From IMG/VR virus record IMGVR_UViG_3300025687_000390, positions 1 through 21,473 of that record: a DNA stretch of 21,473 bases. The stretch is one strand, 5' to 3'. This stretch comes from a virus. The position numbers were made by a program, and so were the translations under genes. Shown here in pieces: positions 975-11,433 of the stretch. The notes under the pieces are model-generated. The model worked only from the letters and a program-made list of their open reading frames with translations, had not been told where the DNA came from and ran no database searches. Position 1 is the stretch's first letter, and every line of letters starts with the position of its first letter.

Positions 975-1421
975 ATGAAAAAAATATCAAGACAAATTAA
1001 AAAAATAAATAAAGAATTTACACTAAATAATCTAGAACAAGAAAAGAATAGGGAGAATATCATCCAATGTTATTTGAAGTTATTAAAGAAACAAAGATCA
1101 TTGCCTACAAATAAACAAATTGCTGAAATAACTGGATTGAATGAACGCACAATAAGCATACATAAGAAAGATATAATTAAAGATAGTAGTAAAGCTAGAG
1201 AAGCTATAACGCCTTATATAGAGCCGTTTGTTACTACATTATTAGATAATAGTATTAACTATAAATGTGTTCGTTCAGCTAAGTTATTAGCTCAAATAAT
1301 GGGATTGCTTGAAGTAGACAAAAATGAAATAAATATAAATAATAATAGAATATCACAAGTAATAATTTCACAAAAAAAAGTTCAAAAATCTGAAAAAGGT
1401 ATGCCGGATGACACCCCATAA
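975..1421 (+). CDS. Probable terminase small subunit
   Basis: This is a 148-residue basic protein. The segment at about residues 44-68 (LPTNKQIAEITGLNERTISI) reads as a helix-turn-helix, the DNA-binding fold of phage small terminases that recognise packaging sites and load the large subunit. A helical middle part (about 75-112) could oligomerise, and the tail is low complexity. The call rests on the HTH, the size and the position two genes upstream of a clear large terminase; small terminases diverge too fast for recognition by sequence alone. No Shine-Dalgarno site is visible before the ATG, which is unusual here. The last 14 bases overlap the next gene. A transcriptional regulator is the main alternative. 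Confidence 0.6.
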   Translation: MKKISRQIKKINKEFTLNNLEQEKNRENIIQCYLKLLKKQRSLPTNKQIAEITGLNERTISIHKKDIIKDSSKAREAITPYIEPFVTTLLDNSINYKCVRSAKLLAQIMGLLEVDKNEININNNRISQVIISQKKVQKSEKGMPDDTP

Positions 1422-1668
1422 TCATATCGGATGGGCTATATCCCAACACATACTAATTATACTCACAACTCTCATAATAATATTTTCCTTAGCCTTTGCT
1501 ATTACATTGGTCATTAGAGCCTTTTATTTTCTTAATATAGGTAATGATCCTATCGAAGGATGGTCTAGCCGTAAAGAAAGAACATTAGAAGATATTATGA
1601 AAGATGGTATAGAACAAGAGAATATAGAAGGAAATAGATTTGTATCAGGATTTAGGACTCAGGACTAA
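1408..1668 (+). CDS. Small single-pass membrane protein of unknown function
   Basis: This 86-residue protein has a strongly hydrophobic segment at about residues 13-37 (ILIILTTLIIIFSLAFAITL and following), then a charged tail of roughly 45 residues. There is no lipobox or cleavable-signal pattern I would trust. It sits between the two terminase genes, overlapping the upstream gene by 14 bases, with an AAAGG site inside that gene. In T7-like phages lysis genes (holin, Rz-type spanin) neighbour the terminase genes, so a lysis or membrane role is possible, but nothing in the sequence proves it. The tail is too short for a typical Rz coiled coil. Confidence 0.6.
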   Translation: MTPHNHIGWAISQHILIILTTLIIIFSLAFAITLVIRAFYFLNIGNDPIEGWSSRKERTLEDIMKDGIEQENIEGNRFVSGFRTQD

Positions 1669-1677
1669 GAAGGTTAT

Positions 1678-2988
1678 ATGAAGGTTAGTTTTGAACTCAA
1701 TTCTAAACAGTATGAAATATATAACATGATATTTGATGAGAAAGGGGAGTTAAGGACTGATCATAATTATACTCATTTTAGTTTCTTTGGCGCATTTAGA
1801 TGCGGCAAGTCATTTTTAATGATGTTAGTAACAATGATGTTATGCCTAACTTATCCTAACTGTAATGGAACTATTATTAGGATGACTTACGGAGAGTTAG
1901 CGGATAGTTCAATTGTTCAATATTTAGAAGCGTTCCCACCCGATCAGTGGGGGTACTCTTATAAAACAGCAAACAGAGAAATTATTTTTGATAATAACTC
2001 ACGATTAACTTTTCGTGCCTTTGATACTGATAGTAAGATTAAGAGTAATAATTATGATTTTGCACTGTTAGTGCAGGCAGAAGAGATTCCTGAGAGTTTA
2101 TATTTACAAGTTATTGGGAGACTTTCAGGACAGGCTTTGCCTCGACCAATACTCCTGACAGAGGGGAATCCGGCTGATACACACCTTAAGGATTTATATA
2201 TTGATTCGACTGAGGAGTTTAGAGAGAAACAAGGTATTTATTTTATTAGTGGTGAGACTAAAGATAATGCTGAAAACTTGCCTAAGAATTATATAGAAAA
2301 TTTGAAGCAGAATTACCCAGAAGATTATCTTGATAGGTATTTGTATGGTGGATGGAATAAAACTTCGGATAGAGTTTATACCGCTATGCAAGATCACCAT
2401 AAGATTAAAGATTTAATTGTACAAGATCATTGGTATAAGTGTATTGGTTTTGATCATGGGATTGTTAATGATTCAGCAGCTGTGTTCTGTGCTAAAGATG
2501 AGTACGGGAATGTTTATGTTTTTGATGAGTGGAAAAAGAAAGGTGCTACTTTAGAAGATATAGTTTCTGCTTGTAAGATGTATGGCAATCTACCCATTAT
2601 TGCTGATTTTTCAATGAAGACTGGTAGGGTAGATGTCGCTTCACTTTGGGATGATTTGATGACGATGGGTCTACACCTTATAGAATGTACCAAAGACAAA
2701 CAGGCAAATATTTTATTGGTTAATAGAGCTTTTCATCTTAATAGATTAAAGATCATGGAAAGCTGTGAATATACTTGGGGGCAACATAAGCGTTATCAAT
2801 ATAAAAGAGCGTCAATGACTGGTACTGAAAACAGAAAAGAACAAGTTAGAAAGTTCGATGATCATAGTTGTGATGCTTTGCAATACGCGATGCGTTATTT
2901 ACAAGATATTAAAGTTCGAAACACACTCGCCTTTGATGCAGTTGCGGGCAAGCCAACGCTTAAAGAGATGGTGGAGAGAGACGTATAA
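1678..2988 (+). CDS. terL: Terminase large subunit (packaging ATPase-nuclease)
   Basis: This 436-residue protein is the motor that threads DNA through the portal and cuts concatemers. The N-terminal ATPase has a Walker A-like loop at residues 38-45 (GAFRCGKS) and a Walker B plus catalytic acid at 129-136 (ALLVQAEE). The C-terminal RNase H-like nuclease shows its expected acidic residues: D259 in IGFDHG, D310 in PIIADF, and D394/D395 and D399 in RKFDDHSCDAL. Length fits the family. AAGG precedes the ATG, and the gene ends nine bases before the next start. The Walker A departs from a classic GxxxxGKT/S only in its flanking residues. No interruption is seen. Confidence 0.95.
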   Translation: MKVSFELNSKQYEIYNMIFDEKGELRTDHNYTHFSFFGAFRCGKSFLMMLVTMMLCLTYPNCNGTIIRMTYGELADSSIVQYLEAFPPDQWGYSYKTANREIIFDNNSRLTFRAFDTDSKIKSNNYDFALLVQAEEIPESLYLQVIGRLSGQALPRPILLTEGNPADTHLKDLYIDSTEEFREKQGIYFISGETKDNAENLPKNYIENLKQNYPEDYLDRYLYGGWNKTSDRVYTAMQDHHKIKDLIVQDHWYKCIGFDHGIVNDSAAVFCAKDEYGNVYVFDEWKKKGATLEDIVSACKMYGNLPIIADFSMKTGRVDVASLWDDLMTMGLHLIECTKDKQANILLVNRAFHLNRLKIMESCEYTWGQHKRYQYKRASMTGTENRKEQVRKFDDHSCDALQYAMRYLQDIKVRNTLAFDAVAGKPTLKEMVERDV

Positions 2989-2997
2989 GGAGGCTAT

Positions 2998-3555
2998 ATG
3001 GAAGGACAAGAATTAATTAAATATGAAGTAAAACAAAGAGTAGATGAAATTAGAGATGGAATAGATAAGAATGTAATGATGCAGATCAAGCAAGCAATGC
3101 TTAAAAATCAAGAGTTTTTACGTACTGCATCTATAGAGGCAAACAATAGAATGATTGATGAAAATAAAGTTATGAACTCAGCACAATTGACTAAGAAGTT
3201 ACTCGAACTGGATTCAAAAGTAACAACAATGCAATACCATTCAGACCCATATGTCCTCAGTGATAAAGTCAATAAACTACATCAGAGAATGGAAAACATG
3301 ATAAATGAAATTAATACTCTATCTAATAGAATGACAAGAAATGAAGATTCTTTGGTAGATGCAGAAATTAAAGCAGAGGATGTCAAAAAATTATATGTTC
3401 TATCAGGATGTACCCATGTTGAAATGAGTAAATACTTAAACGTAGATAAGTCACGCTTCTATCAGATTTTAAATGGATATGAAAAAAAACCTGATCTAAG
3501 AAGACTTAACTTAATGAAAAGGTATTTTGAGAATAAAATAAATGCCACTTCATGA
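2998..3555 (+). CDS. Unknown protein with coiled coil and C-terminal HTH-like segment
   Basis: This 185-residue charged, largely helical protein starts after a strong AAGGAGG site ten bases downstream of the large terminase stop. Residues about 60-120 have heptad-like spacing of hydrophobics (LDSKVTTMQ, VNKLHQRMENMINEINTL) and probably form a coiled coil. Residues 132-160 (LYVLSGCTHVEMSKYLNVDK and following) look like a Cro/sigma-type helix-turn-helix. Coiled coil plus DNA-binding helix would suit a second packaging factor or a regulator. I do not recognise the family and assign no function. The last 14 bases overlap the next gene. Confidence 0.65.
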   Translation: MEGQELIKYEVKQRVDEIRDGIDKNVMMQIKQAMLKNQEFLRTASIEANNRMIDENKVMNSAQLTKKLLELDSKVTTMQYHSDPYVLSDKVNKLHQRMENMINEINTLSNRMTRNEDSLVDAEIKAEDVKKLYVLSGCTHVEMSKYLNVDKSRFYQILNGYEKKPDLRRLNLMKRYFENKINATS

Positions 3556-3911: not shown

Positions 3912-4280
3912 ATGAAATTAGGATCAAGAACAACGGATTATCAAATATTTTGTGTATACGATTACAATAAAGACAAAACAACAATTAAAGTAGAAGAAAA
4001 ATTACACAAATTACCACGTATCCACCAACTAGATTTTTTAAAAGATGCAACTGAGAAGTTATTAAAATTATATAATCAAAAACTAGATGAATTTAACGAC
4101 TCACCTAAAAATGAAAGTGAGAAAAAAATTATAAAAGAAATACAACAGGTAATTGATAGTAAAGAAGGAGAAAAAAATGCCATTGAAGAAAGGGACGAGC
4201 AAAAAAACATTCTCGAAAAACGTGAAAACGGAGTTAAAAGCAGGAAAAAATATGTCGCAGGCACTCGCTATAGCTTATGA
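3912..4280 (+). CDS. Unknown charged protein
   Basis: This 122-residue Lys/Glu-rich protein starts one base after the previous stop with AGAGGAT upstream. Residues 1-30 look beta-rich (DYQIFCVYDYNKDKTTIKVE) and residues 38-110 are helical and probably coiled-coil. I do not recognise it. The last 104 bases are shared with a second, well-supported small gene in another frame, and the final 34 residues (ending KYVAGTRYSL) are encoded there, so the functional C-terminus may matter less or be constrained by the overlap. Confidence 0.55.
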   Translation: MKLGSRTTDYQIFCVYDYNKDKTTIKVEEKLHKLPRIHQLDFLKDATEKLLKLYNQKLDEFNDSPKNESEKKIIKEIQQVIDSKEGEKNAIEERDEQKNILEKRENGVKSRKKYVAGTRYSL

Positions 4281-4314
4281 TATGAAAAAGAAAAGCAAAA
4301 AAAAGAGTTATTAA
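4177..4314 (+). CDS. Small basic phage protein beginning MPLKKGTSKKTFSKN
   Basis: A 45-codon frame starts at an ATG seven bases after AGAAGGAG and ends with TAA at 4314. The product is extremely basic: MPLKKGTSKKTFSKNVKTEL, then KAGKNMSQALAIAYDMKKKS and a lysine tail. The PLKKG(S/T)SKKT-FSxNxKxExKAGK-xxQAxAIA pattern resembles a small protein I know from many phage genomes, particularly aquatic ones, usually of unknown function. It overlaps the 3' end of the upstream gene by 104 bases in another frame. Family resemblance plus ribosome-binding site make this a real gene despite its size. A DNA- or capsid-associated role is only a guess from its charge. Confidence 0.75.
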   Translation: MPLKKGTSKKTFSKNVKTELKAGKNMSQALAIAYDMKKKSKKKSY

Positions 4315-4328
4315 GGTATAATAAAAAT

Positions 4329-4434
4329 GCATAGGTATCCAAGTGGCCAAAGGAGCCGTTGATCAATATCAATTCATCAAAGAATAAACAGCGGTAGATT
4401 ATGTCTTTCAAAGGTTCGAATCCTTTTCTATGCA
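4329..4434 (+). tRNA. tRNA-like element, class II, with an oversized anticodon loop
   Basis: A nearly complete tRNA cloverleaf can be folded by eye. The acceptor stem is GCATAGG (4329-4335) with TCTATGC (4427-4433), closed by one G-U. The D stem is TCC/GGA around loop AAGTGGCCAAA; the T arm is AAAGG-TTCGAAT-CCTTT (4410-4426); a short extra arm AGA/TCT lies within 4395-4409. Discriminator A is 4434 and no CCA is encoded. The D arm and extra arm are class II and most like tRNA-Tyr. The anticodon stem CCGTT(G)/(C)AGCGG encloses about 27-29 bases instead of 7, so no anticodon can be assigned. Without roughly 22 extra bases the length would be normal. It may be intron-bearing, decayed, or a tRNA mimic. 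Confidence 0.6.
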
Positions 4435-4455: not shown

Positions 4456-4626
4456 ATGACAAATAAAATCAACCATGATAAGTATCAGAACAATGACTTT
4501 ATTAAATCCAATAGTGAGTCATTGAAATATATTGCACAATGGGATGAAAAAACATCAGATATTGTATATAAACAAATAAAAGACGAAGATTTTTATAAAA
4601 AAAGGAAAAATAATGAGCAGACTTAA
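4456..4626 (+). CDS. Small hypothetical protein
   Basis: A 56-codon frame (MTNKINHDKYQNNDFIKSNS, then a Glu/Lys-rich end) fills the space between the tRNA-like element and the next gene, overlapping the latter by 14 bases. That matches the overlap at two other junctions in this cluster. The composition is that of a soluble helical protein, not random AT-rich translation. There is no clear ribosome-binding site and I do not recognise the family, so it remains a moderate call. Confidence 0.45.
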   Translation: MTNKINHDKYQNNDFIKSNSESLKYIAQWDEKTSDIVYKQIKDEDFYKKRKNNEQT

Positions 4627-5029: not shown

Positions 5030-5248
5030 ATGGCAAGCTTAAGAAAAGTAGGTAAAACCTATTATGTACGATATAAGAAAGGGGAAAAGGAATATACTGA
5101 GAAGTTAGGAAGTAATTTGACCAAAAGAGTTGCAGAACAGCTTTTAAGAAGGGTAGAAGCGCGACTAGCTTGGCAGAAGCAAGATGAGATTGATAAAGCT
5201 ATTGGATTTAACTTTAATAAAATGTATTCAAATTTATTAGGAGAATAA
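5030..5248 (+). CDS. Orphan integrase N-terminal (arm-type DNA-binding) domain protein
   Basis: This 72-residue protein begins MASLRKVGKTYYVRYKKGEK and continues EYTEKLGS...RVAEQLLRRVEARLA. That is the beta-hairpin-plus-helix pattern that opens many tyrosine integrases, where it binds arm-type att sites: a short three-stranded sheet (residues about 3-26) and one helix (about 31-52). Complete integrases continue for some 300 residues with a core-binding domain and an R...HxxR...Y catalytic domain, none of which follows in any frame here. It could be an integrase remnant or a free-standing DNA-binding protein acting like an excisionase or regulator. No clear ribosome-binding site precedes it; it follows the twin hairpins by about 45 bases. 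Confidence 0.65.
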   Translation: MASLRKVGKTYYVRYKKGEKEYTEKLGSNLTKRVAEQLLRRVEARLAWQKQDEIDKAIGFNFNKMYSNLLGE

Positions 5249-8048: not shown

Positions 8049-8357
8049 ATGGAGTATAACGTAGGCACAGAACTTCAGTTTAAAAAAGATTTAGGGGTAA
8101 GCGTATGGGTAGATGGCATTTTACCAGCAGGGCAAATGGGCTTGAAAACCACCCATTTGCGAATATGCATCAATGAGTTTCACTTGGACTTGCCCCTGAA
8201 TCAAGTAGAAAAGTTATTTGAATTAAAAGTTGATACTCCAAAAGTAGAACCTGTAATAGAGCCAGAACCAGAACCAGAAGTAGAAAAAATAAAAATTGAA
8301 AGAGTAAGGCTAACAAAACCTAGATCAAAAAATCCAAGGAAGAAAAAAGATGCATAA
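8049..8357 (+). CDS. Unknown protein with Glu/Pro-rich linker and basic tail
   Basis: This 102-residue protein is the first gene of the rightward head operon. Residues 1-60 look folded and beta-rich (VSVWVDGILPAGQMG, LRICINEFHLDLPL). Residues 61-82 are an acidic proline-rich linker (VEPVIEPEPEPEVEK), and the last 20 are basic (TKPRSKNPRKKKDA). Acidic linker plus basic tail suggests binding to another head protein or nucleic acid, but no family is recognised. The ribosome-binding site is weak (GAAG) and the last 8 bases overlap the next gene. Confidence 0.55.
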   Translation: MEYNVGTELQFKKDLGVSVWVDGILPAGQMGLKTTHLRICINEFHLDLPLNQVEKLFELKVDTPKVEPVIEPEPEPEVEKIKIERVRLTKPRSKNPRKKKDA

Positions 8358-8691
8358 AGAAAAAGGTAAAGGCATGTTCATCATACAAATTGGCGCAGAA
8401 GAAATGAAAAAGCCTAACTCAATGGCGGAAGAATATGAAGATAAAAAAGACAAAAAATCTTATACCGTACAAGAGTATGGAGGTTACACACCACAATCCC
8501 TCGTTAAAAAATTAGAAGGTGTAAAAGAGTCCATTGCTGCTGGAAAAACGAAAGAGGCTCTTATGCAAATTGACAGTTGTATCGTGAGATTAACTAAACG
8601 GGAGTTACCCGAAATGAAGGAAGATGATCCTTTCACAACAATCGAGTATCAGCTGGATCAGATTTTACCTAATCAAGGTAAAGGAAACTAG
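8350..8691 (+). CDS. Unknown acidic protein upstream of the scaffold gene
   Basis: This 113-residue, mostly helical protein has residues 50-75 (LVKKLEGVKESIAAGKTKEA) as an amphipathic helix and an acidic C-terminal half (ELPEMKEDDPFTTIEYQLDQ). The first ATG has AAGGAAG at good spacing inside the previous gene; the ATG at codon 9 is a second possibility with AAAGG upstream. Position just before the scaffold suggests a head-assembly role, but it is not recognised. Confidence 0.55.
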   Translation: MHKEKGKGMFIIQIGAEEMKKPNSMAEEYEDKKDKKSYTVQEYGGYTPQSLVKKLEGVKESIAAGKTKEALMQIDSCIVRLTKRELPEMKEDDPFTTIEYQLDQILPNQGKGN

Positions 8692-10516: not shown

Positions 10517-11041
10517 ATGGCATATAAAGCAATTAACAATATAGCTGCTGTAGACCTCGATGATATCGATAAAGAGTCAGCTACAAAAAAATATCCTTTA
10601 GGTACTGTTATTGAAGTTAATGACACTTCTAAAGGTGGCGTTTCACAGTTTATGTACGTTAAAGCTCATGCTGCTTTTGCAACTGTAGGAACACCATTCC
10701 AAATTACTGCTGGTTCTGGTGGTGATGCAGAAGTAGTTACAAAAGCTAATGCAACTTTAGCTAATGGAGCATTAATTGGATTTAATAATATTGCAATTAC
10801 TGTAGATTATTATTTCTTTGCACAAACTGGAGGTGTAGTAACAGCTGCTGCTGCTGCTGGGATTGCTGCTGGTGATCATGTAGAAGTAATTAATGCAGGT
10901 ACTAGTGTAACTGTAGATGGTACTTCTGGATCAACTACACTATCTACAAAGTCAATTGGAGTAGCTAAAACTGCAACTACAGCTTCACAAATAGAATTAG
11001 CTATAGTTCCAGGACGTAGAGTAGAGATAGCTGCTGCTTAA
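10517..11041 (+). CDS. Probable head decoration (capsid cement) protein
   Basis: This 174-residue Ala/Gly/Thr/Val-rich beta protein directly follows the capsid gene behind a strong AGGAGG site. Short repeated beta turns run through the chain (TKANATLANGALIGF, AAAAAGIAAGDHVEVI), and the end GVAKTATTASQIELAIVPGR has the 'returns to G(V/I)A...V.V.PG' form seen in DUF2190-like cement proteins. These bind the outside of the shell and stabilise it. The stop codon shares one base with the next start. Confidence 0.7.
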   Translation: MAYKAINNIAAVDLDDIDKESATKKYPLGTVIEVNDTSKGGVSQFMYVKAHAAFATVGTPFQITAGSGGDAEVVTKANATLANGALIGFNNIAITVDYYFFAQTGGVVTAAAAAGIAAGDHVEVINAGTSVTVDGTSGSTTLSTKSIGVAKTATTASQIELAIVPGRRVEIAAA

Positions 11042-11433
11042 TGACTAACTACGGATGGATTCCAGAACAAGAGGGCATACAGTATTTTAAGTCGACTGGT
11101 ACTGGTACTCAATCTGATCCATTCGTGCCTGAAATATCAACGAGTATTGAAGGTCATTTAGACTTTGGCTCGGCCACTAACTTTTCAGTTACGGTCGGGT
11201 CAACGTCTACATTAATTAGAAGTGCAAATTCAGCACGAAAATTATTAGTTTTAGTGAATGATTCTGACGTTGTTTTGTATGTGTCTTTAGGTGCAACAGC
11301 AGTTATGAATGAAGGTATTAGATTAAATGCTAATGGGGGGAATATAGTTCTTGAGAACCCAATATATACAGGAGATATTTACGCTATTTGTTCAGCAGGC
11401 GGTAAAACAATAGTTGGAGTAGAGGGTGAATGA
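11041..11433 (+). CDS. Small virion-type protein of unknown function
   Basis: This 130-residue beta-rich protein has a polar N-terminus (residues 1-45). Its core (SVTVGSTSTLIRSANSARKL, then LVLVNDSDVVLYVSLGATAV, then a closing AICSAGGKTIVGVEGE) has the shape of small phage structural domains often found near capsid and fibre genes. The start codon is in the TAATG of the previous gene and no strong Shine-Dalgarno is seen, so it is probably translated by reinitiation. It overlaps the next gene by 4 bases. Confidence 0.6.
   Translation: MTNYGWIPEQEGIQYFKSTGTGTQSDPFVPEISTSIEGHLDFGSATNFSVTVGSTSTLIRSANSARKLLVLVNDSDVVLYVSLGATAVMNEGIRLNANGGNIVLENPIYTGDIYAICSAGGKTIVGVEGE

Follow-up and report, generated by a model that had tools for sequence, protein, structure and literature searches.

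The DNA analysed here (hereafter the window, meaning the whole stretch of 21,473 nucleotides) is a 21.5-kb fragment of an uncultured, podovirus-like phage with a P22-like portal and a TerL. The intergenic gap between an ORF that ends at position 4314 and one that starts at 4456 contains a tRNA-like element of 106 bases on the plus strand (4329-4434), and an ORF that resembles the start of an integrase gene lies further downstream. The parts of the locus are as follows, with the basis of each assignment in brackets (L084 is a related phage that carries a diverged copy of the element, and R1 is a covariance model that we built with the proposed structure).

4317..4322, plus strand: TATAAT, a -10-like hexamer 6 bases before G1, without a good -35 (sequence)
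4329..4434, plus strand: whole tRNA-Tyr-like element, from G1 to the discriminator A73 (RF00005; our own model R1)
4329..4335, plus strand: 5' strand of the acceptor stem, 7 bp with 4427-4433, GCATAGG/TCTATGC (Rfam model, comparison with L084)
4338..4354, plus strand: D arm with a 3-bp stem TCC/GGA and a AAGTGGCCAAA loop as in bacterial tRNA-Tyr (Rfam model, D-arm matches, comparison with L084)
4355..4361, plus strand: 5' strand of the anticodon-type stem, GCCGTTG, which pairs with 4389-4395 (comparison with L084)
4362..4388, plus strand: expanded 27-base loop that replaces the 7-base anticodon loop, without GUA (sequence, ARAGORN)
4372..4385, plus strand: inner hairpin ATTC-ATCAAA-GAAT, in L084 ATGC-AGT-GCAT (depends on gap placement within the loop)
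4389..4395, plus strand: 3' strand of the anticodon-type stem, CAGCGGT (comparison with L084)
4396..4409, plus strand: variable arm to C48 (4409), with a 3-bp AGA/TCT stem between 4396-4398 and 4404-4406 (comparison with L084)
4410..4426, plus strand: T arm AAAGG-TTCGAAT-CCTTT with a 5-bp stem, in L084 AAGGG-TTCGACT-CCCTT, a compensatory difference (comparison with L084)
4427..4434, plus strand: 3' strand of the acceptor stem and discriminator A, CCA not encoded (sequence, comparison with L084)
5030..5248, plus strand: orphan integrase ORF of 72 aa, N-terminal part only (contig L217 encodes a full tyrosine integrase with a matching N-terminus)

The Rfam tRNA model (RF00005, gathering score 29) matched the element over its full length (model positions 1-71 of 71) with 33.9 bits and an E-value of 1.7e-5 in a region search with lax filters. 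The class II tRNA-like fold that the first-pass annotation had read from the letters is thus confirmed, with the acceptor, D, variable and T arms and A73 all intact. It should be noted that the element was neither reported by cmscan with default filters nor called by ARAGORN in its default mode (introns off); when introns were allowed, ARAGORN returned a tRNA-Leu(CAA) with a 20-base intron. The Leu call reflects no more than the triplet that ARAGORN places in the loop. RF00005 was the only Rfam family above its cut-off in a search to E 10, in which no match to bacterial Y RNA, T-box or other families could be observed, and neither ARAGORN nor Rfam gave a tmRNA match. Single-sequence folding of the element was not significant (z -1.24), and its support thus comes from the tRNA model and a diverged relative rather than from folding energy. 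An assembly error is unlikely, because the element is identical in an independent contig (L083) that is 99.7% identical to the window. Since the gene is skipped by standard annotation (default ARAGORN and default Rfam scan), similar RNAs may go unnoticed in other phages.

The tRNA landmarks U8, A14, G15, G18G19, C48 and A73 are present in the window element, and the elbow contacts G18G19/T55C56, T8-A14 and G15-C48 are all possible. The anticodon-type stem comprises 7 bp and closes a loop of 27 bases (a larger one if 5 bp are counted), which agrees with the earlier estimate of 27-29 bases with about 22 in excess; our count is 20-22 extra bases. Both phages lack the 7-base anticodon loop with U33 of a decoding tRNA, their loops having 27 (window) and 24 bases (L084), and no GTA for a GUA anticodon could be found in either loop. 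The body of the element is tRNA-Tyr-like, a feature that the first-pass annotation had overlooked. Its D-arm 20-mer (GTATCCAAGTGGCCAAAGGA) had 17 matches when one genome per species was considered: 15 tRNA-Tyr(GUA), from Verrucomicrobia, Phycisphaerales and Chloroflexi by record title, one archaeal tRNA-Leu and one non-tRNA sequence. The assignment to tRNA-Tyr is based on these matches and on three further features: the class II variable arm, G1-C72 and A73. A tRNA-Tyr-type D-arm sequence was also seen in L238 (position 191) and L239/L240 (viral contigs), followed there by sequence that ARAGORN rejects as tRNA; these are possible truncated or odd tRNA-like elements.

Promoter scans upstream of the element found no full promoter and nothing better than chance. 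In a related contig (L207) without the RNA at this place, the same upstream gene also has a comparable AAGGTATAAT after it. In the window, the ORF just before the gap (4153-4314) encodes a lysine-rich protein of 53 aa that belongs to phrog_2423 (function not assigned); it overlaps the end of ORF 3912-4280 and occurs in all relatives checked.

Conservation of the fold in a diverged phage

L084 shows about 71% DNA identity to the window phage over the terminase and portal regions. Its tRNA-like unit (8348-8451, 104 bases) scored 30.9 bits with RF00005, above the gathering score, and sits at a different genomic position; the BLAST match between the two elements is confined to window positions 4331-4434 and excludes the flanks. 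The two copies differ by substitution at 15 of the 103 aligned columns. None of the 25 pairs in the cloverleaf and anticodon-type stem is lost in L084, and two have changed on both strands: C28-G66 has become A-U and, in the T stem, an A-U pair has become G-C. With substitutions placed at random, the joint P is ~1.5e-4. The anticodon-type stem of L084 reads AACGTTG/CAGCGTT and includes one of these double changes. When the inner hairpin is included, 29 of 29 pairs are kept with three double changes (P ~1.5e-5), provided that the 3-base gap is placed in the hairpin loop; MAFFT put it elsewhere. RNAalifold predicted the same fold from a structure-aware alignment of the two copies. In addition, synonymous sites are saturated between the two phages (pS 0.71-0.87), and a divergence of about 15% in a non-coding element therefore points to constraint, unless the element has moved between the phages since the rest of their genomes diverged. 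The first-pass annotation had made its reading depend on a covariance score above background and on covariation in relatives; both were found, the latter in one diverged relative. On sequence grounds, it is well supported that the element is a structured RNA that functions.

The element was found in two phage species only (window/L083 and L084), so that the covariation is based on a single pair of sequences, and it was absent from the other relatives examined, some of which are fragments. Model R1, whose founders score 128 and 124 bits, detected no further member in 775 kb of phage DNA; the best other match (20.7 bits) was a partial tRNA beside the integrase in L217. No third diverged copy was found via TerL, portal or integrase N-terminus homologues in viral contigs. 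Beyond the known members, the pattern GTTGATCAA...AAACAGC matched in IMG/VR, among the matches listed, unrelated sequence without tRNA-like context. When both copies were compared by BLAST with sequenced phages, and the window copy also with plasmids, all that came up were short 3'-end or chance matches.

Genomic neighbourhood and possible origin

The L084 homologue of the orphan integrase ORF (MASLRKKGKSYYVRY...; 8468-8659) starts 16 bases after the RNA on the same strand, and this position directly before an integrase N-terminus had escaped the first-pass annotation. In the window the ORF lies about 600 bases downstream of the element, with two ORFs between them. The ORF lacks the catalytic domain. 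Its versions in the window and L084 share 56% identity, and a pN (0.32) lower than pS (0.78) indicates that it is probably maintained as a protein. Both the element and the ORF are carried by the window phage and L084, and both are absent from a further relative (L002). Integration of an element at a tRNA gene leaves the tRNA with an integrase gene behind it in the same orientation. The order seen here is of this kind, which suggests that the element and the ORF may come from a tRNA/integrase junction that was captured. A search for the integrase N-terminus in the tRNA-Tyr gene neighbourhoods examined gave nothing convincing.

The same observations might be taken to mean that the element is still a relic or attachment module, that is, a host tRNA-Tyr and integrase gene start captured from an integrated element and retained either through inertia or for use as an attachment site. 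The proximity in L084 and the joint presence and absence of the two features favor this explanation. However, the ORF has no catalytic domain, it is well separated from the element in the window, and an attachment site requires DNA identity, not compensatory RNA pairing. We consider such a role unlikely on balance: tRNA-integrase capture is good as an account of origin and weaker as one of present function.

The cargo of relatives provides further context. In L242, a C5 cytosine methyltransferase gene (10564-11355) lies between the 53-aa and 56-aa ORFs, which is the exact site of the element in the window. Further on, in both L242 (12226-14167) and L207 (reverse complement, ~1300-3430; contig IMGVR_UViG_3300010297_000210), a compact Cas12f/Cas12u-like protein (477 aa in L242; Pfam Cas12f1-like_TNB, PADLOC Cas12u4/Cas12f) is followed by CRISPR arrays with 35-base repeats, comprising nine repeats and eight spacers in L207 and several more, up to the contig end, in L242. 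The gene-to-array stretch is similar in the two contigs and may contain a tracr-like RNA, and the L207 spacers had no match, with five mismatches allowed, in the sequences compared. Thus, the methyltransferase and the Cas12f-like CRISPR cargo indicate that the terL-portal stretch is an accessory-gene hotspot with defence-related cargo.

The expanded loop and alternative readings

In the consensus of the two phages, the anticodon loop is replaced by an arm that consists of the 7-bp stem, an asymmetric internal loop (10 + 3) and a small hairpin. Two inner hairpins had been noticed at first pass. ATTC/GAAT is preserved in L084 by a compensatory change, whereas TTGAT/ATCAA, although possible in both phages, is in competition with the anticodon stem. 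Rival folds either lose pairing in L084 or are less favourable in the window. One of those rejected combines a normal-looking GTTGA/TCAAT anticodon hairpin with a long variable arm (AAAGA/TCTTT); in the window it is less stable than the cloverleaf by 4.7 kcal/mol, and its long arm is broken in L084. The GTTGA/TCAAT hairpin occurs in Opitutaceae tRNA-Tyr and, on its own, is still possible in the element. The L084 copy has a single-sequence fold that is 4.4 kcal/mol better than the cloverleaf, a point against the reading favored below. The rod-like MFE structure of L084 was rejected, having no counterpart in the window by inspection.

That the RNA is a decoding tRNA, from which a host or phage enzyme excises an anticodon-loop intron of 20-22 bases (17 in L084) to leave a 7-base loop, appears quite improbable. 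ARAGORN does give tRNA-Leu(CAA) in both phages, with introns of 20 and 17 bases, and the edges of the loop (ATCAA... and ...ATAAA) are conserved around a variable middle. However, the 10 + 3 internal loop is not a standard bulge-helix-bulge motif, the splice sites are ambiguous (CAA, CUA or AUA anticodon by choice), no simple junction yields GUA on the Tyr-type body, and the middle of the loop retains a hairpin. The insert is also too short for self-splicing and far below group I size. Bacteria are not known to have a tRNA-splicing endonuclease, which would also count against an intron in a bacterial host.

A pseudogene of a phage tRNA-Tyr in decay would account for the lost anticodon, the absence of the gene from many relatives and the missing CCA, but is highly doubtful given that all stems are intact in both phages with two to three compensatory changes, that the T-loop, D-loop and Levitt positions are intact and that divergence is about 15% despite saturated synonymous sites. 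Among the options named at first pass (intron, decay or mimic), the mimic fits best, decay being opposed by pairs that are all kept across saturated divergence and the intron by the lack of a known splice motif. A cis-acting leader, in which a tRNA mimic would regulate the downstream gene by binding a tRNA-binding protein, is very unlikely: a small ORF does follow shortly downstream in both phages (21 bases in the window, 16 in L084), but the downstream genes differ (a 56-aa ORF in the window and the integrase N-terminus in L084) and conservation ends at the tRNA ends.

Proposed imitation of tRNA-Tyr and comparison with known systems

The RNA is probably at work outside translation, and perhaps serves as a decoy against bacterial defences that attack tRNA. 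The gene would encode a structured RNA derived from bacterial tRNA-Tyr, in which the elbow, acceptor end and variable arm have been kept and the anticodon loop is swapped for a longer arm; with its loop so replaced, the RNA is unable to decode as transcribed. The parts retained by selection are the ones that RNase P, the CCA-adding enzyme, EF-Tu and TyrRS recognise. Host proteins might thus recognise the RNA as tRNA, and it could tie up or distract those that act on tRNA-Tyr, the most plausible targets being defence nucleases of the retron-Eco7, Septu (PtuAB) or a related kind. An RNA derived from tRNA-Tyr that works outside translation by imitating tRNA-Tyr, most plausibly against defence nucleases, is the reading we favor, with confidence somewhat short of even. 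The sequence analysis shows the structure and its conservation, the tRNA-Tyr-like body, the missing Tyr anticodon and the location among accessory genes; that the RNA is transcribed, processed at its 5' end, given a CCA and used as a decoy is what we infer. More tentatively, the element may represent a class of phage RNA that retains the tRNA-Tyr body, has a non-decoding hairpin arm in place of the anticodon arm and is selected for its effect, as decoy or inhibitor, on host proteins that target tRNA-Tyr.

Retron-Eco7 and Septu both cut the variable loop of tRNA-Tyr, and both are counteracted by phage tRNA-Tyr (PMC11555353, PMC13096335), for which decoy or supplement have been raised as alternatives (PMC13096335). 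Changing the anticodon of the phage SP15 tRNA-Tyr abolished rescue from retron-Eco7 (PMC11555353), a result more in keeping with supplementation by a tRNA that decodes than with a decoy that does not. Thus, the decoy role suggested by the position of the element and by the literature carries moderate weight. If the element is indeed a mimic directed against tRNA-cutting defences, phages would counter these with tRNA-shaped non-decoding RNA and not only by tRNA replacement, and such a mimic would separate two models, decoy and supplement, that are at present difficult to tell apart.

In tmRNA, a tRNA-like domain has its anticodon arm replaced by a longer element, a likeness to the RNA described here. 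The latter differs in its true D stem, in a third acceptor pair that is A-U rather than the Ala G3:U70, and in giving no tmRNA call. The tRNA-Tyr genes of T5/SP15 and T6 share with the element the tRNA-Tyr body, the class II variable arm and the status of phage accessory cargo (PMC11555353, PMC13096335); however, their GUA anticodon is functional and at least part of their action is via translation, whereas the element is without an anticodon loop of normal size. The Bacillus cereus pseudo-tRNA tRNAOther is likewise a tRNA-like RNA beside foreign DNA, with a role outside translation such as we propose, but it is chromosomal and has a Trp anticodon, whereas the element is phage-borne and its anticodon arm is rebuilt (PMC3399842). 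Work on tRNA-dependent lysogeny likewise treats a phage tRNA and an integrase jointly, but there the tRNA functionally replaces that of the host and the integrase is complete, unlike the case of the element (PMC10865867). Finally, phage tRNAs that evade tRNases through anticodon-loop mutations resemble the element in being altered in the loop that is attacked, although their mutations lie within decoding tRNAs, whereas the element has gained about 20 bases (PMC10264068).
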